DNA from: a virus
Reading direction: 5' to 3' (one strand)
IMG/VR virus record: IMGVR_UViG_3300002488_000042
Location: 1-30,081 of that record
Length of the DNA: 30,081 nucleotides
In this document: one piece after another, positions 25,862-30,081 of the stretch
Layout of the letters: the number at the start of each line of letters is the position of its first letter
How positions within the stretch are numbered: position 1 is the first letter of the stretch
The notes under the pieces: generated by a model
Database searches by the model: none
What the model was told of the DNA's origin: nothing
The model's input: the letters and a program-made list of their open reading frames with translations, nothing else
Program-made: the position numbers and the translations under genes

Positions 25862-28033
25862 ATGAACATTATAAAGTTTGGCAATAGTAAAAGAACTATG
25901 GATGCAAAGGAATTAGTTGAACTAATTAGTGAGAGAGTTCCTGCAAATGTTCAGATTAATTTATTAAAAGACACTTATCCACAAGGGGTTGTTAGAGGAG
26001 ATCAATTCACTATTGGTTCACTTGGTGGTGAGGCAGGCAAGTCTTTGAAAATAGATATTAATCCCAAATCCCCATACTTTATGAAAGGTCAAGACTTTAA
26101 TGGTTCTGATGGTGTTGGAGGTATTGTTAAGATATTGATGGAGGGCAGAAATATGAAGTTGCCTGAAGTTAAAGAGTTCTTTGATGATTATTTGAGTGAT
26201 GACGCACCAAGACCAGTTGAAAAGATTAGTTCTATTGTTGATCCAAACATACAACAAATAAATTTAAACACACCATACGATAGCGAACATAAATATCTTA
26301 ATGCACAAGGTGAGTTATTATGTCTCGTTCGTAGGTATAACACTAAAGATAATGATGGTAATCCAGTTCTTGATGGACATGGTAAGCCGAAGAAAGAATT
26401 TAGACAATTTACTGGTGGCAGTAATTATCCAAAGATGCCAGACGTTAGACCTTTGTACAACATACCGAACATTGTGGCATCAGAAAAGATAATATGGGTA
26501 GAGGGAGAGAAATGTGCAGATGCACTTAATGGGCTTGGTTATACTGCTACATGCACTATGGGTGGTGCGGGTATGCTTTCAAAGAAATCTGCAAATCTAT
26601 TTGACTTTTCTCCGTTGCATGAGAAAGAACTGATAATATGGCCAGACAATGATAATGCAGGTCGTAAATTAGCAGAACTTGTCCAAGAACTTGCATTAAA
26701 CGCTGGTGTTAAATCAGTTACTACACTTACACCACCAAGAGGTAAGCCAGAAAGATGGGATGTTGTTGATGCAGTTGCAGAGCAATTTAATATAAATGAG
26801 TTTTTAAACACCAATGTTAAGCAAGTAAAAAAGAACATTAATCTTCTTGACGATAGTTTGTTAATAAACAGATTTGTTGGCGATGCACCAGTACAGAAGT
26901 TTCTAATAGCGAACACATTGCCATTAGCTGTGCCAATTATATTCTCTGCTGCAGGTGATAGTGGTAAAGGTATGATGACTCTTGATCTAGCCATGAAAGT
27001 ATCAAGTGGTCAACCAATGTCAGAATCATTTGGTGGCACAATAAGTGAGTTTGGTAATTCAATTATATTTACTGCTGAAGATGATGAGGCAGAGATGCAC
27101 AGAAGAATAGAAAGACTTGATATAGACAACCAAAGATCAAGCTACGAGCATGAACTGCGAATCGTGAGTTTGCCTAATGTTGGTGGTGTATTTCCCATAC
27201 TACAAGAAACACATGATGGCTACAGAACAAGTGATGAATTTGATAAACTTTACGAACAAATACTGCAAATGAAAGATTTAAAACTTATAGTTTTTGATCC
27301 ATTAGCATCTTTTGTTCACGCAGATGTTAATGCAGATCCAGCGGCGGGTGCAGCACTAACTGGATTACTTGCACAGATAGCTACAGAAACTGGTGCGTCA
27401 GTTATTATGTGTCATCACATGACAAAGATTAAAGAAGACACAGTTGTTAGTACGCCTGAACAAGCAAGAAATATGATTAGAGGTACGTCAGCATTGGTTG
27501 ATGGTGTTCGTTGTGCCTTTGCATTATGGCAAGTAGATGAGGCAACTGGCAGAAGACGTTGCCAAGATTTAGGCATAGATTATCAAAGAAATAAATGCTT
27601 TGATGGTGCAGTAGTAAAATCTAATGGTCCAGCAAACAGAAACATTAGGCATTTCATTAGAGATGAGTTTAGTGGATTGTTGTTAGATAGAAGTGATGAT
27701 ATTTCAAGATTACATACTGGCTCTAATAAAGAGATAAAAAAGAGTGCATTGTTTAATTGGATTGCAGATTGTGAAAGAGAGGGTAGGGCTATGACACAAC
27801 AGTCTGGTGCAGACGCTATCTTACAACGTATGTCTGCTGATACAGATGCACCAAACGTGCTTAATAATTGCACACAACGTATGATTGATGGTCTTGTTAG
27901 AGAATTGATACAAGAGGGTAGAATCGCCAAGTATTCATTTAGCACAAGTGGTGGTCGTAAGTGGCTTGGCACAATAGATGGCGATATGAGTAGAGGTGAA
28001 TACGAGGCCACTACTGCGAGGGATAATGTATAA
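25862..28033 (+). CDS. Toprim primase fused to RecA-like (RepA/DnaB-type) helicase (723 aa)
   Basis: The start at ATG 25862 is set by GGGGGA at 25851-25856. The N-terminal part resembles the degenerate region before phage Toprim domains. The Toprim motif is VEGEK (Glu214, Glu216) followed by WPDNDNAG (Asp262, Asp264), the metal site of primases. The C-terminal RecA-like domain has a Walker A loop AAGDSGKG with Lys369, Walker B ending IVFD at Asp479, and 'RGTSALVDGVRCAFAL', typical of RepA-like hexameric helicases. Residue 370 is Gly where Ser or Thr is usual. A winged-helix-like tail closes the chain. It likely primes and unwinds at the phage fork; no DNA polymerase is in the window. Confidence 0.87.
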   Translation: MNIIKFGNSKRTMDAKELVELISERVPANVQINLLKDTYPQGVVRGDQFTIGSLGGEAGKSLKIDINPKSPYFMKGQDFNGSDGVGGIVKILMEGRNMKLPEVKEFFDDYLSDDAPRPVEKISSIVDPNIQQINLNTPYDSEHKYLNAQGELLCLVRRYNTKDNDGNPVLDGHGKPKKEFRQFTGGSNYPKMPDVRPLYNIPNIVASEKIIWVEGEKCADALNGLGYTATCTMGGAGMLSKKSANLFDFSPLHEKELIIWPDNDNAGRKLAELVQELALNAGVKSVTTLTPPRGKPERWDVVDAVAEQFNINEFLNTNVKQVKKNINLLDDSLLINRFVGDAPVQKFLIANTLPLAVPIIFSAAGDSGKGMMTLDLAMKVSSGQPMSESFGGTISEFGNSIIFTAEDDEAEMHRRIERLDIDNQRSSYEHELRIVSLPNVGGVFPILQETHDGYRTSDEFDKLYEQILQMKDLKLIVFDPLASFVHADVNADPAAGAALTGLLAQIATETGASVIMCHHMTKIKEDTVVSTPEQARNMIRGTSALVDGVRCAFALWQVDEATGRRRCQDLGIDYQRNKCFDGAVVKSNGPANRNIRHFIRDEFSGLLLDRSDDISRLHTGSNKEIKKSALFNWIADCEREGRAMTQQSGADAILQRMSADTDAPNVLNNCTQRMIDGLVRELIQEGRIAKYSFSTSGGRKWLGTIDGDMSRGEYEATTARDNV

Positions 28034-28841
28034 ACTTCCAGACAATAATTGTGTAATTAGCTTTAGTGGTGGCAGAACTAGTGGCTTTATGTTGAAACAA
28101 ATCATTGATAACAACAATGGTCTACCAGATAACGCAGTGGTTTGTTTTGCGAACACTGGCAGAGAGATGCCACAAACACTTGAGTTTATTAATGATTGTT
28201 CGCTCAACTGGGGAATGAAAATTGTCTGGTTAGAATATGATTTGAATGATGAGAACAAGCATATATTTAAAGTTGTAGACTATGAAACTGCCAGTAAGAG
28301 AGGCGAACCATTTGATAAATTAATAAATAAGCATCAGATGTTACCTAATCCATTAGCAAGATTCTGTACTGGTAGTTTGAAAAGAGACACTATAAGTAAA
28401 TATTTAAGAAGTCTTGGTTGGAAGAGATGGCACAACATCATGGGCATAAGGTCGGATGAGAAGCATAGATGCAAAGATGGTTTTCAAAATGGCTTCTATC
28501 CACACTATCCAATGGTTGAAGCTAATCACAGTTTGCGTGATGTAGATCACTTTTGGAGCGAACAATCTTTTAAACTTAACTTACCAGTTGTTAAAGGTAA
28601 AACCATCAAAGGTAATTGTGATTTGTGTTTTCTTAAATCTGAATCACAACTTGCATCTATGGTCAGAGATCACCCAGACTTAGCTCAATGGTGGATCGAT
28701 GCCGAACAAAGACTTAACAAAAGGTTTGAACGTAAGAGAAGCATGAAAGAGTTTGCTAAATTTGTTAATGCTCAACAAGATTGGATATTTAATAATGAGG
28801 CTTATCTTTGCCAACAAGATGGTGGGGAGTGTACAGGTTGA
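28026..28841 (+). CDS. PP-loop ATPase of the PAPS reductase family (271 aa)
   Basis: The PP-loop SFSGGRTSG is at residues 12-20, followed by FANTGRE (41-47), the family's second core motif, and RFCTGSLKR (112-120). A Cys-x2-Cys pair lies at 198 and 201 (GNCDLCFLK), with more Cys at 114, 262 and 269, enough for a cluster or disulfide. Phage members are often labelled PAPS reductase, but DndC-like sulfur transfer to DNA and tRNA modification use the same fold. The start ATG 28026 overlaps the upstream stop by eight bases, with AGGG at 28019-28022; a GTG at 27996 is less likely. Its stop overlaps the methyltransferase start by four bases, suggesting linked function. Confidence 0.85.
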   Translation: MYKLPDNNCVISFSGGRTSGFMLKQIIDNNNGLPDNAVVCFANTGREMPQTLEFINDCSLNWGMKIVWLEYDLNDENKHIFKVVDYETASKRGEPFDKLINKHQMLPNPLARFCTGSLKRDTISKYLRSLGWKRWHNIMGIRSDEKHRCKDGFQNGFYPHYPMVEANHSLRDVDHFWSEQSFKLNLPVVKGKTIKGNCDLCFLKSESQLASMVRDHPDLAQWWIDAEQRLNKRFERKRSMKEFAKFVNAQQDWIFNNEAYLCQQDGGECTG

Positions 28842-30081
28842 AGATAGTAGATTTATTTAGTGGTATAGGTGGATTTAGTTATGCCGCCGAACAAATAGTA
28901 GGTGGCTTTGAGACAATAGCTTTTGTTGAACAAGATGAATATTGTCAAAAAGTCTTGCGTAAACATTGGCACGATGTACCAATATATAGTGATATAAGGA
29001 GTTTTAATGCAAAAGAATACAAAGACGCAGACATCGTTGTTGGAGGATTCCCATGTCAACCCTGGTCGGTTGCAGGATCTCAAAGAGGCAGCGAAGATGA
29101 CAGAGATCTCTGGCACGAAATGGTTAGGGTTATTGAAGACATACGGCCTAGATGGATCATTGGCGAAAATGTGTCAGGCTTTGTTACAATGCCAATGGGT
29201 CTCAGAAGAAGTCTCGTTGACTTGGAAAGTATTGGGTACAAAGCCATACCATATCTTATTCCAGCTGCAGCCGTCGATGCCAAACATAGACGAATGCGAT
29301 GCTGGATTGTGGGCTACTCCGAACACGATGGATCATCTACCACCACGTTCAGAGGAGGGAACAACCAAGTTAATGGAAGGTCAACGCAAGGGCAGAACCA
29401 AACCAGCGAACTTGAGGGAGCAAGTAGACGAACAGACAATGAGTTTGTACAAACAGACATCTTCGACCTTATGGCCAACACCGACAACACAAGAGATAGA
29501 ACACCCGCAAGCGGATTTGACACCGAACAACAGACGTTTGAGCAAGGACGGGCAGACATCTCACAGTTTGAACCTAGCGGACAGCGTGAAGATGTATCCA
29601 ACACCGAGAGCAAGGGATTGGAAAGACGGATACACAGTACCGCCGTCAGTTCAAAAGGGAACGAGAGCACACACTTTGGGAACATTTGTAGCAGAGAAAG
29701 AATCAATGTGGCCGACACCGACAACAAAGGGGTACGGACATGCATCAATGGGTCAGACGATGATCTTCCGAAAGAAGGTGGAGAGGGGAGAGTTGACCGA
29801 ACAACAAGCACAACAGATGCTAGGTTGCACACTAAGACCACCAAGAATGGAGAAATGGGATTATCCCAAAAAGGAGATGTTCCCTACGCCATCGGCAAAC
29901 GAAGATGCAGCGGGTCGACCAGGGGGGAAGATGCAAAAGATGTTAGGCAACCATCCTTCCGTGAGAGACCAGTCCTCTGGAACGCTGAACCCAACGTGGG
30001 TAGAGTGGCTAATGGGGTATCCAACAGGGTACACCGACTTAGATGTTTAGGGAATAGTATCGTTCCACAAGTGGTAGCTAG
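28838..30081 (+). CDS. DNA (cytosine-5) methyltransferase, 3' end outside window
   Basis: It transfers a methyl group from SAM to C5 of cytosine in DNA. A TTG start at 28838 (GGGGAG eight bases upstream, TTGA overlap with the previous stop) gives the canonical MKIVDLFSGIGG motif I. Motif IV is GGFPCQPWS with nucleophile Cys73, motif VI ENV at 110-112, and motif VIII HRRMRCW at 150-156. After a long, low-complexity Asn/Thr/Ser/Gly target-recognition region, the closing 'VGRVANGVSNRVHRLRCLGN SIVPQV' is the motif IX/X region, in the same frame, so the enzyme reads as intact. The frame has no stop before 30081. Codons are far more GC-rich from about 29100. Protection from host restriction is the likely role. 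Confidence 0.88.
   Translation, partial: MKIVDLFSGIGGFSYAAEQIVGGFETIAFVEQDEYCQKVLRKHWHDVPIYSDIRSFNAKEYKDADIVVGGFPCQPWSVAGSQRGSEDDRDLWHEMVRVIEDIRPRWIIGENVSGFVTMPMGLRRSLVDLESIGYKAIPYLIPAAAVDAKHRRMRCWIVGYSEHDGSSTTTFRGGNNQVNGRSTQGQNQTSELEGASRRTDNEFVQTDIFDLMANTDNTRDRTPASGFDTEQQTFEQGRADISQFEPSGQREDVSNTESKGLERRIHSTAVSSKGNESTHFGNICSRERINVADTDNKGVRTCINGSDDDLPKEGGEGRVDRTTSTTDARLHTKTTKNGEMGLSQKGDVPYAIGKRRCSGSTRGEDAKDVRQPSFRERPVLWNAEPNVGRVANGVSNRVHRLRCLGNSIVPQVVA
28995..29001 (+). promoter_or_regulatory. Internal ribosome binding site for the nested ORF
   Basis: TAAGGAG lies inside the methyltransferase coding sequence and five bases before ATG 29007, an ideal Shine-Dalgarno in strength and spacing. It is among the strongest sites in the window. 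In the methyltransferase frame the same bases encode Ile-Arg-Ser, so nothing in that protein demands them exactly. Confidence 0.6.
29007..30050 (+). CDS. ORF nested out of frame in the methyltransferase gene, [W/Y/F]PTP-repeat protein (347 aa)
   Basis: The ORF is fully inside the methyltransferase gene, shifted by one frame, and ends with TAG before the window end. It has its own TAAGGAG site. Recognisable blocks are 'SLTWKVLGTKPYHILFQLQP SMP' near residue 70-92, five units of the form [hydrophobic]-[W/Y/F]-[P/A]-T-P (LWATPNTMD, LWPTPTTQE, MYPTPRARD, MWPTPTTKG, MFPTPSANE), and a closing 'LNPTWVEWLMGYPTGYTDL'. I recall proteins with all these blocks from phages and bacteria, usually labelled hypothetical or methylase. 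Function is unknown. Recurrence of the blocks could reflect real translation or only the conservation of the overlapping enzyme. Confidence 0.5.
   Translation: MQKNTKTQTSLLEDSHVNPGRLQDLKEAAKMTEISGTKWLGLLKTYGLDGSLAKMCQALLQCQWVSEEVSLTWKVLGTKPYHILFQLQPSMPNIDECDAGLWATPNTMDHLPPRSEEGTTKLMEGQRKGRTKPANLREQVDEQTMSLYKQTSSTLWPTPTTQEIEHPQADLTPNNRRLSKDGQTSHSLNLADSVKMYPTPRARDWKDGYTVPPSVQKGTRAHTLGTFVAEKESMWPTPTTKGYGHASMGQTMIFRKKVERGELTEQQAQQMLGCTLRPPRMEKWDYPKKEMFPTPSANEDAAGRPGGKMQKMLGNHPSVRDQSSGTLNPTWVEWLMGYPTGYTDLDV

Follow-up and report, generated by a model that had tools for sequence, protein, structure and literature searches.

The C5 cytosine DNA methyltransferase M.EcoHK31I (YGGCCR) is a heterodimer whose small polypeptide is encoded in another frame inside the large gene, both polypeptides being needed for activity. 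Here we describe a comparable locus in the virus record IMGVR_UViG_3300002488_000042 of IMG/VR. The whole stretch analysed (positions 1 to 30,081 of that record, 30,081 bases, in the following the window) encodes phage structural and replication genes, and at its end an open reading frame (ORF) of 347 codons is nested out of frame in a C5 methyltransferase gene. Sequence comparisons make it likely that one DNA stretch codes here for both halves of a heterodimeric C5 methyltransferase in two frames, the nested half being the one that would set the methylated sites.

According to the excerpted source, M.AquI and M.EcoHK31I each consist of two polypeptides. In M.EcoHK31I the large polypeptide contains motifs I–VIII and X as well as the predicted target-recognition domain (TRD), and motif IX is found in the smaller one; the small subunit of M.AquI comprises the distal variable region together with motifs IX and X (PMC3404938, in excerpt). 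The same excerpt assigns the variable region and motif IX of C5 methyltransferases to a small domain that makes the specific contacts. Methyltransferases of the Bacillus phages SPR, phi3T, rho11 and H2 contain tandem target-recognition domains (PMC8936443, in excerpt), and in phage ShiLan an out-of-frame HNH element is a mobile insertion inside a phage methylase (PMC11855218, in excerpt).

Measured against these excerpted accounts, the large subunit of the window resembles that of M.EcoHK31I in having motifs I–VIII and X without IX. In the nested family, too, the second polypeptide lies in another frame of the large gene; unlike its counterpart in M.EcoHK31I it bears one or more modules, at times beyond the large gene. 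The nested pair likely works like M.EcoHK31I, in the sense of a likeness of arrangement rather than of demonstrated homology, and the matching plasmid records (3, then 20 at an E-value of 1e-20) included no enterobacterial, EcoHK31I-like relative. Four split forms among the relatives (L121, L141, L237 and L255) are similar to M.AquI as excerpted, from which the window differs by having motif X in the main frame. The enzymes of SPR, phi3T, rho11 and H2, as far as the excerpt describes them, are single chains read in one frame and thus a one-frame precedent for module arrays, whereas here the tandem modules occupy the other frame. With the ShiLan element the locus shares an out-of-frame ORF inside a phage methylase, but the nested ORF is neither an insertion nor an HNH protein.

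Members of the nested family have been seen before. Gp56 of phage Shelly is annotated as “g55 internal gene”, DNA methyltransferase, so annotators had already spotted the ORF in Paenibacillus phages; Shelly gp56 and phrog_1008 belong to the same nested family, and their annotations assign no role to the nested protein. Titles and abstract openings of the open full-text literature searched contained no description of the family (REBASE and subscription papers lay outside the scope of that search). The two-chain arrangement is already known in kind, and tandem modules in a hidden subunit look new if compared to M.EcoHK31I.

Selection and start signals in the two frames

An earlier note on this DNA had proposed the 347-codon ORF within the methyltransferase, and its coordinates and open frame are confirmed (Table 1). 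The methyltransferase starts with TTG 28838, a further in-frame TTG being found upstream at 28808, and its ORF leaves the window end; in the near-identical contig L004 the complete protein has 431 amino acids. Profile searches matched PF00145 (E 1.1e-43) and phrog_363 (E 7.2e-67), both over 28808-30079, the PF00145 match reaching only profile position 233 of 324.

When codons were shuffled in a synonymous manner with the methyltransferase protein kept, the nested frame acquired 13.4 stops on average (minimum 4), and 17.1 (minimum 6) if seven other window genes supplied the codon usage; in both cases it was open in 0 of 20,000 shuffles. The longest open runs in 11 other window ORFs were 77 codons (+1) and 67 codons (+2).

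For the selection test 28 close loci were available; 12 of them were left out as copies, truncated or redundant, and the codons of the other 16 were aligned. Differences were counted by their effect in both frames with a simplified overlapping-gene method; omegas derive from sites that are nonsynonymous in the other frame, and few sites are synonymous in both. Over 120 non-independent pairs (bootstrap over codons with every fourth pair) omega was 0.165 (0.115-0.21) for the nested frame, which is not the neutral change that the earlier note had named as a refutation, and 0.58 (0.41-0.81) for the methyltransferase frame. Along the nested protein the values for the nested and the methyltransferase frame were 0.63 and 0.11 (residues 1-60), 0.10 and 0.08 (61-105), 0.11 and 1.34 (modules, 106-300) and 0.38 and 1.16 (301-347). 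The catalytic core is under purifying selection in both frames, weakly at first in the nested one, and in the region where a recognition domain is expected constraint acts on the nested frame only, the methyltransferase frame being unconstrained. Identities to the first row among 13 close relatives (85-96% for nested proteins, 80-88% for methyltransferases) agree with this result.

Start signals of the nested gene are conserved as well. In the window, the nested frame is closed on its upstream side by the TAA within TAAGGAG, which is in frame with it. Among 71 loci complete for both genes, a nested-frame stop occurs at most 15 nucleotides before the nested ATG in 58, and AGGAG or GGAGG at most 20 nucleotides upstream of it in 54. 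Counting repeated N-terminal contexts once, 160 of 168 distinct viral contexts have a nested-frame ATG 120-230 nucleotides past the methyltransferase start, most commonly at +169 (73 contexts), and a Shine-Dalgarno-like core of some kind is present in 128; in the third frame, used as a control that was not dereplicated, an ATG falls in about the same interval in 76 of 218 loci and such a core in 47. Four loci (L050, L052, L080 and L081) depart from the usual stop just 5' of the nested ATG, as their nested frame is already open before the methyltransferase start.

The nested ORF is very likely a real overlapping gene. Conserved start and Shine-Dalgarno sequence, conservation and selection bear out the deliberate translation and the overprinting on the target-recognition region that the earlier note had claimed. 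Among the roles that it had offered for such a gene, that of a partner of the enzyme agrees with conservation, start signals and selection in both frames.

Relatives in phages, bacteria and plasmids

Viral contigs were scanned with the nested protein, the nested alignment and the methyltransferase alignment, and the best 80 of 187, of at least 572 and of at least 583 relatives were taken, respectively. Three phage records and the copy of the window itself (L084) were added, for a total of 230 locus records, 182 of them distinct. After dereplication at 93%, 51 of the 71 complete loci were kept for alignments; L003 was left out of A1 and A2 because its N-terminus was badly aligned.

An ORF matching the nested profile overlaps the ORF matching the methyltransferase profile, in a different frame, in all 230 viral locus records, so that a nested frame broken by stops in homologues, another point raised at the outset, was not what we found. 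The overlap was present in 80 of 80 loci fetched by the methyltransferase alignment alone; 75 of these were new records, 49 of which represent DNA outside the catch of the nested searches, and all 75 have nested E-values of 3.7e-38 or better. This search ranks on whole-protein similarity, including the linker over the modules, and is biased towards the nested type. All 80 bacterial-genome loci (best 80 of 281, with the nested alignment as query) show the overlap too. Nearly all overlapping ORF pairs (235 of 238) have a relative frame of +1.

In samples of 299 genomes from each of two phyla, matches occurred in 4 and 15 genomes, starting genome included, and the overlap was present in the 15 loci derived from them (two being one gene). 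Five plasmid loci were found with the methyltransferase: L348 and L349 match the nested profile, L350 has a similar +1 ORF judged by eye only, L346 is ambiguous, and L347 is a canonical single-chain enzyme with LTPRECERLQGFPDDY and no nested-profile match. L348, from the archaeal plasmid pMETHO01 of Methanomethylovorans hollandica, is a compact form with a methyltransferase ORF of 267 amino acids and a +1 ORF of 180 codons, which ends in LNPVWTEWLMG. Multiple copies were also noticed. One assembled Roseovarius chromosome contains five copies of the methyltransferase/nested locus (L267-L271), which are five of the 80 bacterial-genome loci and may reflect a repeated prophage or an artefact of assembly, and on one contig (L120/L170, 132-1952) tandem methyltransferase ORFs are each overlapped by their own nested-profile ORF.

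As a canonical control, 20 PF00145 loci in four genomes were inspected. Eight carry the nested frame, with 250-340 open codons, nested-profile E-values of at most 1.1e-34 and a PF00145 match only to position 165-196; one element, present in five copies in a single genome, accounts for five of these eight. Nine methyltransferases with a PF00145 match to 319-324 have no nested match, their longest +1 run being 106 codons. Neither do the partial PF00145 matches L327, L329 and L330 have a nested frame, hence a partial match alone is not predictive of it.

A putative target-recognition subunit

Of the profile families, phrog_1008, labelled DNA methyltransferase, matches the nested protein (E 2.2e-26; protein 9-345, profile 39-281 of 329); Pfam and NCBIfam contain no matching family and PADLOC gave nothing; hhalign found no relationship between the nested and the methyltransferase profile. 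Typically, an N-terminal domain containing the conserved LTWK block is followed in the nested protein by modules that each start with [WYF]xTP and finally by LNPxWVEWLMGYPxGxT. In the window the LTWKVLGTK block, the five units (WATP, WPTP, YPTP, WPTP and FPTP at nested residues 102, 156, 197, 235 and 292) and the last block, LNPTWVEWLMGYPTGYTDL, which overlies main-frame EPNVGRVANGVSNRVHRLR, are all present in the nested frame, as the earlier note had described. A simple pattern counts 0-9 modules, mostly 3-5, in 188 distinct nested-frame ORFs, some of them truncated.

The modules have a median length of 41 amino acids and fall into 88 similarity clusters, 20 of them with at least five members, and the members of a cluster stand at differing positions. 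Modules with 80% identity or more recur between enzymes with catalytic-core identities of 50% or less (341 pairs, 127 modules, 92 loci), and hence appear to be exchanged as cassettes. A larger count of 2260 “exchanged” modules was set aside, as the N-terminal domain had been miscut in some ORFs, and catalytic-core identity was used instead. In L051, L053, L054, L059, L060 and L067, among which the pairs L051/L053 and L059/L060 seem to be near-copies, the nested ORF outruns the methyltransferase stop by 61-231 codons with more modules, and beyond that stop the methyltransferase frame is broken by stops in L051, L054, L059 and L067. The third module of the window, which is double-coded, is 81% and 78% identical to single-coded modules of L067 and L059, respectively, which indicates that the module sequence serves the nested frame.

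For the main-frame protein the best matches in the PDB are HaeIII and HhaI, aligned over about 165 columns. In its AlphaFold2 model the 228 residues from 166 to 393, between the well-predicted core and the motif X helix, have a predicted local distance difference test (pLDDT) score below 50, though such values are not proof of disorder. The earlier note had put motifs I, IV, VI and VIII upstream of and within the overlap and IX/X at the end of the enzyme. Motif I upstream, IV, VI and VIII inside the overlap and X at the end hold, but no other motif lies upstream and motif IX is not recognisable in the main frame, an IX-like block being found in the nested frame instead. As the main frame contains neither a recognisable recognition domain nor a recognisable motif IX, we call its product the catalytic subunit and not a complete single-chain enzyme.

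The division of motifs between the frames differs among relatives. In the four split forms the main-frame ORF ends after motif VIII, and the nested-frame ORF has the modules, LNPDWVEWLMG and motif X. In L295 it is the main frame that bears the IX-like block, with LNPDWVEWLMGFP, along with motif X; its match extends to position 323 of 324 in PF00145 and to 329 of 329 in TIGR00675, and the nested ORF consists of modules only and ends just before. Such frame changes, of motif X as well as of the IX-like block, are difficult to account for if the two chains do not form one enzyme. The nested protein is therefore treated here as a likely target-recognition subunit of a two-chain C5 methyltransferase; the options of an inhibitor or an anti-restriction protein, also contained in the earlier note, find no support in view of these frame changes and the lack of a recognisable recognition domain in the main-frame protein. 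The candidate motif IX in the LNPxWVEWLMG block is assigned by position, pattern and context.

Several observations weigh against this interpretation. The LNPxWVEWLMG block has the position and look of motif IX, but the HMMER alignment of the L295 block with HhaI 272-314 is not significant, nor is the hhalign placement of the nested profile on motif IX of canonical methyltransferases (E 0.44). A corresponding hhalign comparison of the split-type nested proteins was unsuccessful, and the four split-type nested ORFs have no methyltransferase match in Pfam or NCBIfam. The nested profile matches no PDB sequence up to E 10, and with a mean pLDDT of 47 the AlphaFold2 model of the nested protein is poor, so that no fold backs a recognition domain. 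In M.EcoHK31I, as excerpted, the predicted TRD resides in the large subunit, whereas the corresponding main-frame region is unconstrained here. L104, L172 and L194 appear broken in one of the two frames, through mutation or sequencing error, L327 lacks the nested frame in spite of its partial PF00145 match, and the distribution counts rest on the best-scoring loci of longer lists.

The mechanism that we propose is as follows. The main frame would give rise to a catalytic subunit with motifs I-VIII and X, and ribosomes initiating at the internal Shine-Dalgarno sequence and ATG would produce a second protein from the +1 frame, composed of the N-terminal domain, an array of WPTP modules of about 41 amino acids and the motif IX-like block. 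Both proteins presumably assemble, the nested one acting as the small DNA-reading domain that chooses the methylated sites, perhaps with one target per module, and the enzyme may serve to protect phage DNA against host restriction. The part of the main frame between motifs VIII and X would be a mere stop-free carrier of the array, which could leave the modules free to be gained, lost and exchanged. We regard it as fairly probable, with less confidence than in the two-frame enzyme of the window, that a whole methyltransferase family of phages, bacterial genomes and one archaeal plasmid keeps recognition cassettes of about 41 amino acids in a hidden frame over a neutral, stop-free visible frame, and that the IX-like block and motif X changed frame in the course of evolution, with at least three ways of division.

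It is improbable that an independent overprinted gene (for an inhibitor, a regulator or an anti-restriction protein) simply shares its DNA with a self-sufficient methyltransferase. Such a gene would have start signals of its own, as observed, its modules might be variable and exchanged between enzymes like those of arms-race proteins, and a nested protein that escapes fold assignment suits it. But no recognition domain is recognisable in the main frame, motif X and the IX-like block move between both frames, the nine canonical methyltransferases of the same genomes lack the nested frame, and no nested copy without a methyltransferase was seen in the 230 viral and 80 bacterial loci. We give very little credence to the idea that the nested frame is the C-terminal part of one long enzyme made by +1 frameshifting. 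A single-chain enzyme would indeed have its motifs in the observed order (I-VIII in the main frame, followed by modules and IX-like block), but the conserved Shine-Dalgarno sequence, the ATG and the in-frame stop right before it speak against this idea, and nested residues 61-105, strongly constrained, overlap the core and would remain unread in a fusion after motif VIII.

A selfish out-of-frame insertion of the ShiLan type is barely credible, since the nested protein has no HNH match in Pfam, PHROGs, NCBIfam or PADLOC and no other nuclease family was found, and since the ORF overlaps the catalytic core instead of being inserted, is present in all relatives examined and not scattered, and was not seen to be present or absent as a whole between otherwise similar close relatives. 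A non-functional shadow frame held open by methyltransferase codon bias could draw on the weak constraint of nested residues 1-60 and on the invariant main-frame residues in the stretch beneath the LNPxWVEWLMG block, but its probability is practically negligible given the codon shuffles, the selection on the nested frame, the canonical methyltransferases without it and the module arrays that run on past the methyltransferase stop.

Significance and coordinates of the locus

If the two-chain reading is true, gene calling in one frame, as in several records here, omits the specificity-giving half of the enzyme from annotation, and an annotated gene that was recoded and lost its internal start could appear inactive. 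The locus would also be a natural experiment on the sharing of constraint, with dual purifying selection over the core and one-sided selection over the modules. Should the modules be recognition cassettes, methylation targets of phages could be predicted from module order and number. The two-polypeptide arrangement of M.EcoHK31I would be extended to a family in 182 distinct viral and 80 bacterial-genome loci, counted among best-scoring loci.

The features of the locus are compiled in Table 1. The names of motifs I, IV, VI, VIII, IX and X follow the C5 methyltransferase literature.

Table 1. Coordinates of the methyltransferase gene, the nested gene and their sequence elements in the window
Feature	Position	Strand	Support
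C5 cytosine DNA methyltransferase, main frame, proposed catalytic subunit	28838..30081	+	PF00145, phrog_363
Motif I, DLFSGIGG, main frame	28850..28873	+	sequence motif
Shine-Dalgarno TAAGGAG of nested gene	28995..29001	+	five bases 5' of ATG 29007
Nested gene, +1 frame of the methyltransferase ORF, 347 amino acids, proposed target-recognition subunit	29007..30050	+	ATG 29007 to TAG 30050, 347 open codons; phrog_1008, conservation, omega
Motif IV with catalytic cysteine, GGFPCQPW, main frame	29042..29065	+	P72, C73 and Q74 invariant in 50 aligned sequences
Motif VI, GENVSG, main frame	29162..29179	+	E110, N111 and V112 invariant in 50 aligned sequences
LTWKVLGTK block, nested N-terminal domain	29217..29243	+	W73 invariant in 50 sequences; both frames constrained
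Motif VIII region, KHRRMR, main frame	29282..29299	+	H150, R152 and R154 invariant in 50 aligned sequences
Nested module array	29310..29984	+	module starts 29310, 29472, 29595, 29709, 29880
LNPTWVEWLMGYPTGYTDL, motif IX-like block of nested protein	29985..30041	+	near-invariant in 50 sequences
Motif X, LGNSIVPQ, main frame	30047..30070	+	L404, G405, N406 and P410 invariant in 50 aligned sequences

Directly 5' of the locus a gene of the PAPS-reductase family is located at 27996-28841, with a stop that overlaps the TTG proposed as start of the methyltransferase.
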